Shown here: one piece after another, positions 1,832 to 27,617 of the stretch
Layout of the letters: the number at the start of each line of letters is the position of its first letter
How positions within the stretch are numbered: position 1 is the first letter of the stretch
DNA from: a virus
Strand: one strand, 5' to 3'
IMG/VR virus record: IMGVR_UViG_3300021376_000198
Coordinates: 1-33,517 of that record
Length of the DNA stretch: 33,517 nt
The notes under the pieces: model-generated
What the model saw: the letters and a program-made list of their open reading frames with translations, nothing else
The model's database searches: none
Told to the model about the DNA's origin: nothing
Program-made: the position numbers and the translations under genes

Positions 1832-4800
1832 TTCTGAATCCTACAAAGTTAATTATAAATGTTGTAACTCCAACTTGTGCTGGTGTTGCTTGAAGACGAA
1901 TATAACCAGCGTCTAATCCTTCATCAATATCAATTATATAACTTGAAACATCAGTTCCAGTTCCAACGTTTGCATATTCCACATTATAAGCAATTGTACC
2001 ATCATGAACTGCTAGAATTCTAGTAAATTGGTATCTACCTGTTGCTCCTACACCAGATGTAGATGCTTGAATTTGATATTCCACAGATCGATATTCCAAT
2101 CTAGATAATGTTTCATGAATAGTTGTGTTGCCTGTAGTAGTAATAGCAACTCTTGCAGTTCCTGTATTGGTATTATCACCATACATGATGTTACCATATA
2201 CATGTAACTTTTCTCTAGCATTTGTTGTACCAATACCAACAGATCCAATACCACTTACAACACTAAAGAGTGAGCCACCAACTCCAACATGAAGACTTCC
2301 AGTGGTTGTAAAACCACTATTTTGTATAATAGTAGTATTAAGAACTCCAATGGTTCCAATTCCACTATAATTTAAATTAATTCCTCTTAGATAATCAGCT
2401 TTTGCGTTTGTAGAATCTAAGTTTTGGAATGTTGCAATACCAGTAAAATTAAGAGCACCTCCACCAAGATTAAAGTCTTGAGTTGTAATCGAAAGTGCTG
2501 TTACAATTCCGAGAGTTACAATTCCAGTATAAGCTATATTATTACCTGAAAGGAAATTAATTGTACCAACGCCAGCATAATTTAAATTAGTTCCTGAAAC
2601 AAAGGTTACTATACCAACATTAGATCTCAATGTTGTAATACTTGAAATACCTGTGGTATAAGTATTTGTAAGATCTGCTTGAGAATATGTTACTCTTGTT
2701 CCAGATAGTGTTGTTACAATACCACTATTAACTCTCAGGGTTTCAATTGTGCTAATGCCAGAAGTTACATTATTAATATTACCAATATACTCAAGAGTTG
2801 CTGCAGTATAACCAATACTAACTCCAGAAAGACTTGCAATTGTACCAACACCAGTATATCTTATATTTTGACCAGTAAGAAATGTAACAAATCCAACAGT
2901 AGAAACGAGATTTACAGCGGTTCCTACACCACTAATATATGCATAATTAATATCTCCATTAGTAAATGTAAGTCTATCGCCAGATATTGATGGCGCAGAT
3001 AATGTGGTTACATTTAAAGTTCCAATCGTGCCGATACCGCTGTAATTTAAATTTGTACCAGAAACAAAAGTTACAAATCCGACATTTGTTCTTAATGTTG
3101 CAATTGAACCAATTCCGACATAATTAAGATCTGTTCCAGATATTGTTGTTACAAAACCAACCGTTGAATATAGTGTATCTGCAGTACTGACTCCAACATA
3201 ATATGAATTTGTTCCAGTAAGACTTGTAACAAATCCAACATCTGCACGTACTGTCCCCGTTGTTGTTATACCAGAAACTTCCACTCCATCTGAAATTAAT
3301 TTTGTTATGGTTCCAATACCAATTAATCCCTGAGTAATATTAAAGAATGTACCAAATCCAGAATTTACATACAACGTAGAAATTGATGCAATTCCAATAT
3401 TGTTACTTCTAACAATTGATATTGTTGGATTAGTTTCAAATATATTATTAGAATAACTACTCAATACAACAATTCCAGTCAATACATCAAGTACTGTAGT
3501 GTCTAGCGAAATTCCTCCAATATCGGATAATACAAAATCGCCAATTTGAACACCAGTGGTTGTAATTGCAACTCTATCAGTGCTTACACCTAAAGTTATT
3601 GATTCACTTACAATGTTAGTTGTTGTATTTGTCGCAGTTAAATATTTAACTTGGAGGTCAGTAAAAATACCAACATTAGATCCTATAGTTCCACCAATTG
3701 ATAATGCACCAATTGTAGCCGCAGAACTTACGTTAATATCTACAGCAGTTAATATTCCAGTTACATTTGCATTTGTTATAGTTGCTTGTGTAGCAATTCC
3801 ACTATTGACATTAAGTATTGAAAAATTACCAGTAGTTATATCAGCAGTTGTTGAATTAAACGTAGTAATTATTCCACTTGTTACAACAAGATTTGTAATT
3901 GTTGCCGCCGAACTTACATTTACCTCAGTAGCAGTTATAATACCACTAACGCTTGCATTATAAATTATTGCCTGAGTTTCATAAGACTCAGTAACGTAAA
4001 GATCAGTAACATAGGCGGTGTCTATTGTGGACGTAGTGCTGTTAAGACTATCAATTGTGCCGTTTGGCGAATATAGTGTATCAATTGTAGCAGCGGAACT
4101 TACATTGACATCTACAGCAGTTATAATTCCTGTAATATTACCATAAGTACTAGTTGATGACGTAATAGTTCCTGTAGTATATGTTAAATCTGTACCACTA
4201 ATTGTTGTAACAACACCAACAACATTATAAAGATTATTGATATTTGCATCATTAGTAACTCTTAAATATGCAAAAGTGTTAATACCAGCACCAGTTACTA
4301 ATATAGTGCTAGCGACAACATTTCCAGCATTAAGTGTTCCTGTAAAAGTTGAGATACCAATAACTGTCAGTCTATTCAGTGCCGCCGTACCATTACTCTG
4401 TACAATATTGTTTCCAGTATTAGTAAAAGTAGTAATACCAGTTAAACGAGCATTAACTAATTCAACTCCAGTTGAATGAACAAAGGAACTTCCAATATCA
4501 TAACCAGACGTATGAATTCTTGTATTTGCACCAACAAGAACTTCATCAGTAGTTCCCTTCAATGTAATTGAAGAACCACCAACTGTTAAAATTCCAGTAA
4601 CTCTTGCATTACCATTTACAATTAAATCAGTATTACCAAATCCAATTTGCACATTTGCAAATGTACTGATGCCAGTTACTCTAGCATTCGTTGCGGTAAA
4701 ATGAGTAACTACACCAACATTAGCATAAAAATTAGTGACTGATCCAATTCCACTATAATATAAATTAGTCCCATCTAAGAATGAAATTGTACCATCTCTA

Positions 4801-22218: not shown

Positions 22219-23480
22219 CAATTTCCTCCTGATTTTAATTCATAAGAATCGCGTATCAGACTTAATAAAGTATAACTTTGATTTCCTTGAAATTTATGGC
22301 ACAGATTTGCAATCATATAATTACCAGTTTGTTGCGATTCAAATTTTTTGTTTAGTGAATTTGCAGTTGATTCGGGTATTCTGCATTCTATAACTTGTCC
22401 AGCTCTCAAATCTAAGTTGCATGGTATAACAATATTCAAAATTTGAGAGAATAATAAATTATATCTAACTGCAGCTTCTGCTTGATATTTAGGTAAGTTT
22501 TCTATAGTTTCCATCTTTCCATCTAAACTCAAATTACCAACATCTAGTGTGCGAACTACAAATCTTGATGTAGTATTTTCAATTCCTTCTGGCAATTTTG
22601 GATAATTGCTAGTTTGAGATGACTTTGATAGACTAGAGTATTTATCTTGTAACGTATATTTAAAAGGAATGACTTTATTATCATATAGACTGTAGAATAA
22701 ACTTTCATTCGTATACATTCCCATTCTCAATGAAGATAATATATCATTGTTCTTAGATATATTTGATGATAAAATTCTAAGTTTATTTTTAGGATTATAA
22801 GGATCTACTTTCTCAGTTTTTTCATATGTAAAAGAACTTTTCTGACTAATTAATTTATCTACACTCTTAAAAGTATAACCGTCTTGTGTTTCAAAAAATA
22901 AATAACCAGCAGTTCCAAATCCCTTACTTCCTACTGGAACTGCTTTCGGACAAAGCCACATTATTATATCAAAAGGTCTTCTAATGTTGCCAATGAAAGA
23001 ATACTTATTTACACTATCTTCTGTTACAAGTGTTTTTTGAGATTTTAATTGACTAAAAATTGATTTAACACTTTCATTTATTTTTCCATCAAATCTATTT
23101 TTAACCCTAGTAACTTCACTCACTAAAGTTTCTCGACTCACCATTTCAATGCTATAAGTTCCCAAATTAGATTTTTTATCTACTGATGCAGACCTAACAT
23201 ATAAACTTCTTTTAGCATCATTCAGTATCAAATTGTTATTAGAAGACGTTGTTGATATTCTGATATCTACTTTTTCCCCACCGTAAATATCAAATCCTTG
23301 TGGTAAATTTTTAATATCAACAATTGCAAACGTAGCCTTGGCAGTAATTGTGGGTGAAAGAACATCTTCATAATATTCAAATGAAGCTAAAGAATTGACT
23401 GATAAATCAATCTTTACTGAATTTCCTTTTAGAGGAGTGATGGTAAATTCTTCTACTTTATAATTATTTTCTGCTGACAT
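22218..23480 (-). CDS. gp27: gp27-like baseplate hub protein, 420 aa
   Basis: The length is close to T4 gp27 (391 aa), and the gene lies in the hub cluster upstream of gp5. Features consistent with a gp27/VgrG-type hub are a beta-rich N-terminus (FTITPLKGNSVKIDLSVNSL), LYVRSASVDKKSNLGTYSIE at about 90-110, and a C-terminal tudor-like part (NIVIPCNLDLRAGQVIECRI, GNYMIANLCHKF). The trimer would form the torus linking the tail tube to gp5. The ATG at 23480 overlaps the preceding stop by one base. The assignment rests on position, length and motif style rather than clear identity. Confidence 0.65.
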   Translation of the reverse strand: MSAENNYKVEEFTITPLKGNSVKIDLSVNSLASFEYYEDVLSPTITAKATFAIVDIKNLPQGFDIYGGEKVDIRISTTSSNNNLILNDAKRSLYVRSASVDKKSNLGTYSIEMVSRETLVSEVTRVKNRFDGKINESVKSIFSQLKSQKTLVTEDSVNKYSFIGNIRRPFDIIMWLCPKAVPVGSKGFGTAGYLFFETQDGYTFKSVDKLISQKSSFTYEKTEKVDPYNPKNKLRILSSNISKNNDILSSLRMGMYTNESLFYSLYDNKVIPFKYTLQDKYSSLSKSSQTSNYPKLPEGIENTTSRFVVRTLDVGNLSLDGKMETIENLPKYQAEAAVRYNLLFSQILNIVIPCNLDLRAGQVIECRIPESTANSLNKKFESQQTGNYMIANLCHKFQGNQSYTLLSLIRDSYELKSGGN

Positions 23481-24463
23481 TATCCAACATTAAAGGTAGT
23501 GTGAGTTAACAATACTTCTGTGAAGTTACTATAATTTTTATTTAGAGAGGTAGAAGGAGCGGTTGAAGCAACCTGTTGATTTTGTGTTACTTGTGATTGA
23601 TTATTTACTACTGCTATTAACTGACGGTTTTTTCCTGCAGATGATAATTGTTGAGGAATATTTTTTTCTGGTTTCTTAACATCAACTTTACTTGATCCCC
23701 CTCCAACATATTCAAAGTGTACATCATCATTTGGAATTGCCATCCATTTCCATCCATATTTCATTCCATTTTTTTTCATCCAATCATGACCTGCACCCAA
23801 TTCAATATCTAATGCAATACCAGCACCATGAGGAGATGCTCCAGGAGTAGCAACCACTGCATATTTTCCTTGTAAAGCTTTCTGATGTTCTAAACTTCTA
23901 TAAGCACTATTAATTATAATAGTAATACCTGCTTTATTAGCATCTTGCTTTGCTCTTAAAAATGCTTGAGCAGCATCAGGTCTTAAGTATGCTGTTCTTC
24001 CATACCAATATGGACCTCCTTCTGGAGATCCTGATAAGGTTCCGACAGATGTTAATTGATCTTGTCTCAATTTTCCATTTGTTCCATCAGGAGTATATTG
24101 TGATACAACAGCACCAGTTAATCCAGCTGCACCAACACCAGCAACTTTCCCCAATCCAAAAGCTTTTTCTTCTCTTTCTCCTGGAAGTAAATCTTCTTCT
24201 ATTTGTGATGGCGGAGCAGAAACTTTGTACTCGGGCGGTTCATATGTTGAGACTGGTTTTGCAGTAGGAACTCCCTCAGGTTTTTGTGTGGTTTCATAAT
24301 ACTTTTGTAAAGATACCTGAAGGCTTTCATCGAGTATACTTTTTTTAGCTTTTACAACATAATCTTTGCTAATAGATTCTGATGCCTTAATTAAATCTTT
24401 AATTAAATTATCTAAGTATCCTAAACTATTTTTTGTAAGTAAATCTGTTTTCAAATCTCCCAT
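23480..24463 (-). CDS. Baseplate-associated M15-type (VanY-like) peptidoglycan peptidase, 327 aa
   Basis: Residues 145-255 carry the D-Ala-D-Ala carboxypeptidase/endopeptidase M15 signature: SAYRS (186-190), SPHGAGIALD (210-219) and VHFEY (248-252). His212, Asp219 and His249 are the expected zinc ligands. The usual catalytic Glu three residues before the last His is Asp246. The first 100 residues are helical and polar with a Pro-rich linker, and the C-terminus is Gln/Ser-rich. There is no signal peptide, so delivery as a virion part is likelier than secretion. It sits between the lysozyme-like gene and the gp27-like gene, suggesting it cuts stem peptides during injection. M15 membership is firm; the virion role is inferred. 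Confidence 0.85.
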   Translation of the reverse strand: MGDLKTDLLTKNSLGYLDNLIKDLIKASESISKDYVVKAKKSILDESLQVSLQKYYETTQKPEGVPTAKPVSTYEPPEYKVSAPPSQIEEDLLPGEREEKAFGLGKVAGVGAAGLTGAVVSQYTPDGTNGKLRQDQLTSVGTLSGSPEGGPYWYGRTAYLRPDAAQAFLRAKQDANKAGITIIINSAYRSLEHQKALQGKYAVVATPGASPHGAGIALDIELGAGHDWMKKNGMKYGWKWMAIPNDDVHFEYVGGGSSKVDVKKPEKNIPQQLSSAGKNRQLIAVVNNQSQVTQNQQVASTAPSTSLNKNYSNFTEVLLTHTTFNVG

Positions 24464-24467
24464 TTTA

Positions 24468-25838
24468 TTATACCATAATTCCTAGGATTGCTCTAGAAAG
24501 AGATGGATAAAAATTATTTCTATTTTCAGTTAGTCCACCAGGAATAGCATTTCCAGCTGAAACTTGCATGTCTTGTCCAGCTGGTGTTTGATTATTATTT
24601 ACTGGTATTACAATAGGAGGACCAGCCGATGCCATGTCACCTTTAGATTGACTTAAAGTTTCTGCTTTTGTTTTTTCTCCTTTTTGAGCCTTCACCTGAC
24701 TTGCCATAATAGATTTTTCTTCTTCTGCAATTTGTGCGGGTGTTTGTGGTGCTGTGGATATTTGTGTCGCTTCGACATTTGTAGTGGATAAAGATGCCAC
24801 AGTTGCTGATGCTGGTTCTGTAGTTGCACTGGCTTGTGGTGAAGTTCCTGCTGGTTTTTCTGTAGGTTTACCTTTTGCTGTAGTTGGAAGTTTTTTAATT
24901 TGTTCCAATGCACCCTTATATTTTTCTCCACCAAAAGTAGTCCATGCACCAAATTTAGATCCGCCAGATAATGCGAATGCAACCCTAGCATTAACTTGAG
25001 GATCCCACAGTTCCTCATTAGATTTTAAATTAAATTTCTTTCTTCGTTCTTCACCAAGCATATATCCTGGCTCATCAATCATGTTAATTTGCCACAATCC
25101 ATAAGAGTTATCGTCACCACCCCTCTTGTAATTATCATTATGTGCTTGAGTATTTCCTGTAGATTCTGCATATGCAATCGCAGCAGCTTTATCAGCATTT
25201 TCACCTTTAAATCCAACACTTAATGCTAACTCTTTTAATTGCTGTAAACTATATGATTTTCCAGGTGGCGGCGTATAATTAGAATCATCTTCATCATCAA
25301 GCATATTTCCTAACAAAGCTCCACCAGTACCTATTAATCCTCCAGCAACAGCACCTACTAAAGAAGTTTCTCCACCTTCACCATCACCTCGATCACTATA
25401 TGATGGTGGAGTATATGTAGAAATAAGTCCCTCACTAGGAGAAGCAAAAGTTTCTCTCTTTGTTACCTCTGCATATTGAGTATATGCCTGCCTTTCTTTT
25501 TTCTTATCTAACCTTTTTGATGCACTTAAATAACTTTCAAAATCAGATTTTAGTCTGAATAAACTTGATTGCAATCCAAATATTCTTTGCTGCAATCCAT
25601 TAACTAGAGATTGCAATATATCATCATTACGATCTTCAACTCTGATAAATTCTTTTTGTTCAGTGCTTATATCTGTTGTAGTTTGAATTATTCTCAGTAT
25701 ATCTGATAAATCTTTGCCACTCATGACAACTTGTGCCTGTGGTATTGCTCCCAATTCGTCTCTAACCCCAACGCCAGAAGGTGATGCAGAATCTTGTCTG
25801 AAAAATCTAGATAAATTTATTCTTTTAGATCCTGCCAT
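24468..25838 (-). CDS. Baseplate-associated lysozyme/lytic-transglycosylase-domain protein, 456 aa
   Basis: Residues about 196-316 show a goose-lysozyme/SLT-like domain: AAIAYAESTGN with putative catalytic Glu225, NSYGLWQINM at 244-253, then WDPQVNARVAFAL...FGAWTTF. The N-terminal 130 residues are helical (DILRIIQTTTDISTEQKEFI, SLVNGLQQRIFGLQSSLFRL), probably a docking coiled coil. A Gly-rich stretch (160-178) precedes the enzyme domain and a Thr/Ala/Gln-rich tail follows. The start overlaps the end of the gp26 frameshift extension and has GAGAAGG upstream. It may replace the lysozyme domain missing from gp5 and cut glycan strands during entry. Confidence 0.82.
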   Translation of the reverse strand: MAGSKRINLSRFFRQDSASPSGVGVRDELGAIPQAQVVMSGKDLSDILRIIQTTTDISTEQKEFIRVEDRNDDILQSLVNGLQQRIFGLQSSLFRLKSDFESYLSASKRLDKKKERQAYTQYAEVTKRETFASPSEGLISTYTPPSYSDRGDGEGGETSLVGAVAGGLIGTGGALLGNMLDDEDDSNYTPPPGKSYSLQQLKELALSVGFKGENADKAAAIAYAESTGNTQAHNDNYKRGGDDNSYGLWQINMIDEPGYMLGEERRKKFNLKSNEELWDPQVNARVAFALSGGSKFGAWTTFGGEKYKGALEQIKKLPTTAKGKPTEKPAGTSPQASATTEPASATVASLSTTNVEATQISTAPQTPAQIAEEEKSIMASQVKAQKGEKTKAETLSQSKGDMASAGPPIVIPVNNNQTPAGQDMQVSAGNAIPGGLTENRNNFYPSLSRAILGIMV

Positions 25839-26013
25839 TTTGTTGCGCCTTCTCGTTTAATTGCTCAATATGTTGCCGTAGCAATTCTAAATAGATTTCC
25901 CTTTCCCAAGGAATCATATCTTCAACTTCAGTCAAAGAATATTTATGTTGATGCATTAACGAGAAATTAATTCTATAGTAAGTTTCCAAGTCTTCATGCG
26001 CTAGGGCTAACTG
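25825..26013 (-). CDS. Frameshift extension of gp26 (second tail/baseplate chaperone domain), 62 codons
   Basis: This -1 frame is open from 26043 to a TAA at 25825 and has no ATG or GTG start before its conserved-looking part (QLALAHEDLETYYRINFSL, ...VEDMIPWEREIYLELLRQHI). It is most simply expressed by a -1 shift at U_UUU_UUC (26019-26013) near the gp26 stop. The product would be a 302 aa fusion reading ...LADFF-QLALAHEDL. Its aromatic, acidic helical character recalls the T-type extensions of tail assembly chaperones (lambda G/GT logic), and by position it may stand where T4 has gene 51. The last bases overlap the start of the lysozyme-domain gene. An internal TTG or ATG start cannot be excluded. 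Confidence 0.72.
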   Translation of the reverse strand, partial: QLALAHEDLETYYRINFSLMHQHKYSLTEVEDMIPWEREIYLELLRQHIEQLNEKAQQNGRI

Positions 26014-26732
26014 AAAAAATCGGCAAGACCCTCCAAGACTACATTATTTTCTACTTCAGTTTGAGGATTTATTACTTTCGTGGAGTAAGAAAGCTTTGGC
26101 ATTGTCTTAAAAAACTGCTCAACTTTTTTATACTGTTTTGGAGTTAGTTTACCAATATAATCAATTAATTCTTTTTCAGTACATTCAGATGCTGTCCATG
26201 CACTTTCTTCATTGTACACGGTGTCAATACATGAGGACATCAATTTAAATGCTCTGTCAATTTCATTAGAACTTTTTTTAGTAAACTCAAAATTCTCTTC
26301 AATAAATTGAATCAAAGATGGATACTTCATTTTAATATAATACCCATCTTCTAAATCAATTGTATCATTGTGATCATCTGGTTTTTTGATTTCAATTTCA
26401 TCAACATAAACTGTCAATGGTACTTGTGTGACATTATCATCTCCACAAGTAATAAGTAACTCAATTGATTCACCAATAGATTTTGCTCGGATATTTAAAA
26501 ACAAATATTCAATGTCAAAGATTGGAAGAGACTCTACTTTGATTCCTTTTGTAACAATACATGCTTCTAAAACTTGTTTAATTGCATTAGAGATTTGTTT
26601 AATATCTTTTGATTCTACTGCCAAGATTAGAATCTTTTCTTCTCTAACAACAAATGGTCTATACTTTATTTTCTTTCCGTTAGATGGCAGAGTAAGTTCA
26701 TACTGCGGAGCAGTGGGTTGTGGTAAAGGCAT
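26007..26732 (-). CDS. gp26: Baseplate hub assembly protein gp26-like, 241 aa
   Basis: The N-terminus (PQYELTLPSNGKKIKYRPFV, VREEKILILAVESKD) is characteristic of the T4-type baseplate protein/chaperone family. Length is close to T4 gp26 (208 aa). The middle holds a beta-rich part (ESIELLITCGDDNVTQVPLT) and the C-terminus is helical. The ATG at 26732 has AGGAC upstream and lies 33 bp after the gp54-like gene, with a late-like box at that gene's stop. It ends in TAG at 26009-26007, six bases after a slippery heptamer. Expected role: chaperone or minor subunit for central hub assembly. Confidence 0.8.
   Translation of the reverse strand: MPLPQPTAPQYELTLPSNGKKIKYRPFVVREEKILILAVESKDIKQISNAIKQVLEACIVTKGIKVESLPIFDIEYLFLNIRAKSIGESIELLITCGDDNVTQVPLTVYVDEIEIKKPDDHNDTIDLEDGYYIKMKYPSLIQFIEENFEFTKKSSNEIDRAFKLMSSCIDTVYNEESAWTASECTEKELIDYIGKLTPKQYKKVEQFFKTMPKLSYSTKVINPQTEVENNVVLEGLADFFS
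26013..26034 (-). promoter_or_regulatory. Probable programmed -1 frameshift site (U_UUU_UUC) with upstream SD-like GGAGGG
   Basis: In the gp26 reading frame the sequence is GAT TTT TTC AGT TAG, so T_TTT_TTC at 26019-26013 is a canonical X_XXY_YYZ heptamer in the correct register. GGAGGG at 26034-26029 lies 9 nt upstream, near the spacing known to stimulate -1 shifting in bacterial dnaX. I see no convincing downstream hairpin. A tandem slip leads directly into the open 62-codon extension. Confidence 0.75.
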
Positions 26733-26759: not shown

Positions 26760-26767
26760 TATTTATT
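26760..26767 (-). promoter_or_regulatory. Late promoter-like box AATAAATA upstream of gp26
   Basis: The minus strand reads AATAAATA, one mismatch from TATAAATA, overlapping the stop of the gp54-like gene. The gp26 start lies 28 nt downstream. Weak on its own; placement matches the other late boxes. Confidence 0.4.
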
Positions 26768-27617
26768 AAGCAATATTAGGGTTAAGTCCCTGATCAATTC
26801 CACCAATATTTAAATTTGAATTGGTATTGGGATTATTAACTACTGTTGGTGGTGTTACATTAGAAGTTTTTAAATCGGGAATAATCAAAGACTTATCAAA
26901 TGTTGGTGTTCCATTCGTAATAAAATACCTATTGTATACAAAATTAACTGTTAAACTTAATACAGAAGTTCCTTCGTAAGAAACTGCCGAAGCAATAATA
27001 TTGCTTGGATATGCTTTTACAAATTCATAAGTTAATACTGGTGAGTTTTGATAAGCATAATTTCCCTTACCAGTTTTGCTAGTAGGTTTGGGTGTATTTA
27101 AATCTCTTTCAAATTTAGAAATGTATATCGTTTGAGTATAATCATTTGGGTATCTCATTTTAAAATAATTATTTTCTTTCTTCGCTTGCTTTACAACCAA
27201 CCCATTATCATTAGCCTCAACTTTTCCATTTGTAGTATACATTGGTGTAATATAATTAGACCATTCTTCAAAAAATTTAACCACATTATGATTGGTATCA
27301 ACATAAAATGTCAATGCTACTTCTGGATATTGTTTAAATATAGGATATTTTTCTAAAATTCCTTGACGATTTCCAGCTGTTTCTGTCATTTTAAAGCTAG
27401 TGCCAGGAAGAATAGCACCAGCACAAAGTAATTCAATTGCCTCTATAGGATCTAAACCATCACTAACTTTTAATTTATATAATCCTATTTCTTTCATCCA
27501 ATCTTTCAATCCACCCGAAATCGGAAAGGCAACTTTATAAAAAGAAGTAGATGATACTTTTGAAAAGGTGTTCCTTATACTTTCAATTGGATAATAAAGT
27601 TTGGTATTTGATGACAT
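26766..27617 (-). CDS. gp54: Baseplate tail-tube initiator, gp54-like, 283 aa
   Basis: The pattern is that of the tube-protein fold shared by T4 gp19, gp48 and gp54: FYKVAFPISGGLKDW near residue 26, ILPGTSFKMTETAGNRQGIL, then EVALTFYVDTNHNVVKFFEE followed by WSNYITPM, and a late LTVNFVYNRYFI strand. In T4 gp54 the corresponding stretch is followed by the same W-x-N motif. Length (283) is near T4 gp54 (320). Its expected job is to nucleate tail tube polymerisation on the hub, together with gp48. It is divergent from gp4 across a 27-bp gap and lies upstream of gp26. gp19-type or other tube-fold proteins are the alternatives. Confidence 0.65.
   Translation of the reverse strand: MSSNTKLYYPIESIRNTFSKVSSTSFYKVAFPISGGLKDWMKEIGLYKLKVSDGLDPIEAIELLCAGAILPGTSFKMTETAGNRQGILEKYPIFKQYPEVALTFYVDTNHNVVKFFEEWSNYITPMYTTNGKVEANDNGLVVKQAKKENNYFKMRYPNDYTQTIYISKFERDLNTPKPTSKTGKGNYAYQNSPVLTYEFVKAYPSNIIASAVSYEGTSVLSLTVNFVYNRYFITNGTPTFDKSLIIPDLKTSNVTPPTVVNNPNTNSNLNIGGIDQGLNPNIA

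Follow-up and report, generated by a model that had tools for sequence, protein, structure and literature searches.

The locus considered here raises the question of how a conserved reading frame that lacks an ordinary start codon is expressed. In the window, by which we mean the whole 33,517-nt stretch of DNA analysed, which comes from a T4-related cyanophage, a gene resembling T4 gp26 is followed on the minus strand by an open -1 frame whose conserved core is preceded by neither ATG nor GTG. We propose that a single message very probably yields two proteins, gp26 itself and a -1 frameshift fusion that would be the counterpart of T4 gp51. The proposal is based on the sequence elements at the junction, on their conservation, on the homology to T4 gp26 and gp51 and on the lack of such a start in the window, and by comparison with other phages the locus appears to be a well supported new case of a known mode of phage decoding. 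The features of the locus are collected in Table 1.

Table 1. Features of the gp26 locus and its neighbours, in window coordinates.
Feature	Position	Strand	Evidence or remark
gp26-like gene, 0 frame; putative short tail assembly chaperone (TAC-N)	26007..26732	(-)	PF12322, phrog_150, AlphaFold model
GGAGGG, SD-like element, 9 nt 5' of slippery site	26029..26034	(-)	
Slippery heptamer T_TTT_TTC	26013..26019	(-)	in register in 258/263 related loci
TAG, 0-frame stop	26007..26009	(-)	spacing from heptamer differs among relatives
-1 frame extension, 64 aa + TAA; TAC-C domain, putative counterpart of T4 gp51 C-terminal tail	25825..26019	(-)	
Tail tube-like protein, upstream neighbour	26766..27617	(-)	PF23849 E=4e-13, phrog_45
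Downstream neighbour, lytic transglycosylase domain	24468..25838	(-)	SLT_3 E=1e-17, ORF list

The gp26 gene encodes a product of 241 aa and ends in GAT TTT TTC AGT TAG. The heptamer TTTTTTC is read GA_T TTT TTC in this frame, with its TTC two codons 5' of the stop. The initial annotation had placed the heptamer at this distance from the stop and GGAGGG 9 nt upstream of it, and the coordinates proved exact on the minus strand. It had also described a -1 frame open from 26043 to 25825, without ATG or GTG before its structured part, and a fusion of 302 aa; both were re-derived exactly, the frame running from 26043 to a TAA at 25827-25825 and the predicted fusion consisting of 238 + 64 residues. 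The residues spanning the predicted fusion junction are DFFQLALAHEDL, and the junction-spanning peptide of the predicted fusion is LADFFQLALAHEDL, or its equivalent in relatives such as DSL-LC03. The earliest possible start in the -1 frame of the window is a TTG at 25989, 18 nt 3' of the stop; no ATG occurs until the domain has begun. At its far end, the frame overlaps the start of the downstream gene by 14 nt. The main ORFs of the window contain 68 in-frame X_XXY_YYZ heptamers, and the one at gp26 opens 64 codons in the -1 frame compared with 30 for the next longest. A chance origin of the heptamer together with the open -1 frame was dismissed because both are conserved in relatives.

The 0 frame matches Pfam PF12322 (T4_baseplate, E=1e-66) and covers positions 5-232 of the 282 in phrog_150, and the -1 frame covers positions 231-279 of the same profile. 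The -1 frame also matches phrog_634, 'baseplate hub assembly catalyst' (E=1e-26), and hhalign aligned its tail with residues 201-244 of T4 gp51 (36% identity, E=4.9e-5). The locus therefore holds both the gp26-like N part and the gp51-tail-like C part of the T4 gp26/gp51 family. The match of T4 gp26 to phrog_150 stops short of the end of the profile (14-235 of 282), whereas that of gp51 spans it in full (13-280). We therefore read gp26 as the short chaperone and regard the predicted slip product as corresponding to T4 gp51, the "hub assembly catalyst". Judged by the same matches, T4 gp51 is a whole second copy, with a gp26-like body and a C-terminal tail, and thus more than the tail alone. The initial annotation had suggested that the shift merges gp26 with what T4 may encode separately near gene 51, which holds for the C-terminal tail, homologous to gp51, but overlooks that gp51 is a full second copy. 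The two T4 proteins are homologous, and gp51 shares its two-part build with the frameshift product predicted for the window; the difference is that in T4 they are encoded by two separate genes on opposite strands, without a frameshift. An uninterrupted separate gene for the long form, as in the T4 layout, was not found in the window. T4 gp26 has been described as the short, and gp51 as the long, tail assembly chaperone (Vladimirov, Gautam, Davidson 2022, Virology 566:9-15; PMC10885494, PMC12846349), and for some T4-like phages a separate fused gene is described as the source of the long form (Vladimirov 2022; PMC10885494). The T4 'hub assembly catalyst' would then gain a plausible role, that of a minor long chaperone.

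The AlphaFold model of gp26 was confident (pLDDT 88.8), and its significant matches in a fold search were viral gp26 relatives and unnamed phage proteins, with no others. HK97 chaperone 2ob9 was among the PDB fold matches at a non-significant level (E about 2, prob 0.41). An AlphaFold-type prediction of the extension was helical (pLDDT 79.9); the fold search with the extension gave nothing significant, and the PDB sequence search gave no match.

Conservation of the slip site was assessed in 263 loci with a gp26 end, drawn from IMG/VR contigs and phage records and represented by 146 non-redundant loci. The site is in register in 258 of the 263 (241 T_TTT_TTC, 16 T_TTT_TTT and 1 T_TTT_TTG) and lies 2 to 10 codons from the stop across these 258. 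TTT-TTC is present in 131/146 non-redundant loci, where 19% would be expected from Phe codon use, and in only 12 of the 145 other Phe-Phe pairs in the same genes. The codon 5' of the heptamer is GAT, AGT, AAT, TCT or GCT, and so specifies Asp, Ser, Asn or Ala but ends in T in every case. The joint probability of a T-ending preceding codon with the conserved heptamer is about 1e-25, as computed from codon use with relatedness ignored. Such probabilities assume independent loci, though the loci are related, and more weight should be given to the agreement among phages whose hosts are unrelated. The hosts of phages sharing the junction are Synechococcus, Pelagibacter, Caulobacter, Vibrio, Aeromonas, Rhizobium and Stenotrophomonas, and the same junction was found in KVP40, PX29, AS-zj, Cr30 (T_TTT_TTT), Mosig, IG49, RHph_I34 (T_TTT_TTG) and Mendera. 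Among the T4-like phages examined that fall outside the group of T4 itself, the putative frameshift arrangement is conserved. In a pelagiphage-like clade (L086, with L105, L114 and L119 for example), the 0-frame stop lies 10 codons past the heptamer rather than 3, and the overlap of the two frames is longer.

With this breadth of conservation, there is next to no likelihood that the split is a sequencing or assembly frameshift error or the mark of a decayed gene. Such an account can point to the split frame itself, to one contig (L005) without the junction and to nothing more, but the same split recurs in 258 loci, taken from isolate genomes as well as independent assemblies, and the stops vary in type and place. 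The independent genomes refute it. The five exceptions among the 263 loci are L005 and four Ackermannviridae-type loci (L090, L091, L096 and L097). Loss of the heptamer in close relatives had been named in the initial annotation as evidence against a shift, and L005 is such a case, its gp26 locus near 3700 being about 80% identical to that of the window but with an apparent deletion of ~39 nt that takes out the heptamer; this is apparently an assembly error or a loss. In the four Ackermannviridae-type loci the -1 frame is still open, with an M-P-W or V-P-W motif, but G_ATT_TTC, C_CTT_TTT or A_CTT_TTC stands in place of the classical heptamer, so that a different slip may be used there. The -1 extension of these four is unannotated or partly annotated.

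Across the relatives the -1 frame constitutes a conserved helical domain of 62-67 residues and is kept as protein, with changes chiefly at its own third codon positions. In principle, it could be a small gene of its own, annotated in cyanophages as a short 'gp51' and translated by termination-reinitiation or from an internal TTG or ATG. Many records do annotate a 55-60 aa gp51 at this position, the window has its TTG shortly past the stop, and 61 of the 146 representatives have an in-frame ATG between heptamer and core, in some lineages just past the stop, where reinitiation is possible. However, nearly all of these ATGs lack an SD, an SD-like 4-mer being found at only about 3/80, and in 71/146, including AS-zj, ACG-2014e, Mosig, IG49 and DSL-LC03, there is no ATG, GTG or TTG before the core. 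The initial annotation had regarded an ordinary start with a ribosome-binding site in homologues as counter-evidence; what was found is an ATG in a part of the loci, but almost never with an SD. A separate gene would also leave unexplained the invariant in-register heptamer, the T-ending codons for differing amino acids and the stem-loops ~5 nt downstream, and T4 gp51 holds both parts in one chain. We therefore consider a separate gene improbable and favour the frameshift, although in the ATG-bearing representatives a second route of expression appears open.

Several records, among them those of AS-zj (an Aeromonas phage with the heptamer) and the close isolate DSL-LC03, leave the -1 frame unannotated. 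Cyanophage and marine vibriophage gp51 was reported to be without the first about 200 residues, and gp51 to be missing in Aeh1 (Sullivan 2010, PMC3037559). The short cyanophage gp51 of that report is the same C-terminal piece as the -1 frame of the window, but it is described there as a truncated gp51, with frameshifting unmentioned. A frameshift explains this truncated look in both groups, and probably also the apparent absence of gp51 in some phages, Aeh1 included.

The initial annotation had asked whether heptamer, register and GGAGG are conserved. The first two are, but GGAGG is conserved in the window's own clade only, being present in 39/52 window-near representatives and 46/146 overall and scarce in other clades. 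At the Glu codon, GAG is used in 48/52 window-near representatives compared with 32% elsewhere. Most relatives, L057 among them, have a stem-loop about 5 nt 3' of the heptamer. In the A1 set, which was picked by sequence similarity and leaves out the freshwater clade, an 11-bp stem starts 5 nt past the heptamer, with 88% of cells paired compared with 28-46% when slid, and 8 compensatory cells compared with 2.3 in shuffles. Relative to synonymous recoding, the mean z for downstream folding was -2.8 when all loci were taken together; a control stretch gave -0.5 and the window +0.6. The downstream RNA structure of the relatives is, on these comparisons, under selection. In the window no downstream structure beyond shuffles was detected (z +1.0 to +1.7), and the stem is absent both here and from L001 and DSL-LC03, the freshwater sisters of the window. 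Since the window has no stem-loop, its shift rate may be low. RNAalifold over large clades found no common structure because the stems differ between lineages, and the Rfam search gave no credible match. The stem-loop of the relatives and its apparent loss in the freshwater lineage of the window are the main addition to the earlier account, and the natural variants with or without stem-loop, and with or without the SD-like element, represent a test bed for the drivers of -1 shifting.

These elements also bear on whether the fusion message might be made by transcriptional rather than ribosomal slippage, given the run of six or seven T at the site. Polymerase slippage usually needs runs of eight or more, however, and the run here is short and, in most loci, terminated by a C. 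The conserved codon register, the SD-like element and the downstream stem fit ribosomal shifting, and we regard slippage by the polymerase as very unlikely.

In the ribosomal frameshift that we favour, the majority of ribosomes would stop at TAG to give gp26 as the main short tail/hub assembly chaperone. A smaller share would slip back one base on T_TTT_TTC, aided by pairing of the upstream GGAGGG with 16S rRNA, and would read 62 codons past the two Phe to give the 302 aa long form. This would resemble T4 gp51, where the same two parts are fused in frame in a separate gene. We infer the occurrence of shifting, its rate and the stimulatory role of GGAGGG, and we take the chaperone function from T4 and the tail assembly chaperones of other phages. 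The central claim of the initial annotation, a programmed -1 frameshift joining gp26 to a start-less frame, is borne out by the invariant in-register heptamer, the conserved -1 domain and the match of T4 gp51 to both parts. More tentatively, and with slightly less than an even chance in our estimate, the stimulators may have turned over: the ancestor would have had the heptamer and a downstream stem-loop, the cyanophage clade would have gained the SD-like GGAGG, and the freshwater lineage of the window would have lost the stem-loop and come to rely on GGAGG alone. On this view, the separate gp51 of T4 would be the derived condition, gene duplication having freed it from frameshifting.

Frameshifting by -1 is classic for tail assembly chaperones, as in lambda G/GT and others (Levin 1993; Xu, Hendrix, Duda 2004, cited in PMC5009743). 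For T4-like phages, the literature already mentions poly-T slip sites. Cassettes of the G/GT kind lie between the tail tube and tape measure genes, and their shift yields a few percent of fusion, which is absent from virions. The window resembles G/GT in having a short protein with a predicted minor -1 fusion, a slippery site at the 3' end of the first frame, a conserved second frame without its own start and a tail tube gene immediately upstream. It differs in its N part, which belongs to PF12322 (the T4 gp26 family), in its heptamer and in the SD-like element upstream, and sequence kinship is not evident here. No tape measure was clearly recognised beside the cassette; the downstream gene has a transglycosylase domain. 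In Vandenendeviridae and Andersonviridae, chaperone -1 frameshifting uses a GTTTTT motif (PMC12846349); there too the short chaperone gene carries a T-rich site for the -1 shift at its 3' end, and the shift is family-wide, although the phage families and the motif are different.

Where the tape measure would be expected, at 23480-25838, the window has two genes whose products contain domains of cell-wall enzymes (SLT_3 and VanY/M15), and S-SM1 and ACG-2014e have a single protein of >900 aa at this position. In DSL-LC03 (L082 9496-9708), an inserted CP12 carbon metabolism gene separates the gene for the tail protein from that for the spike; none was listed at the corresponding place in the window.
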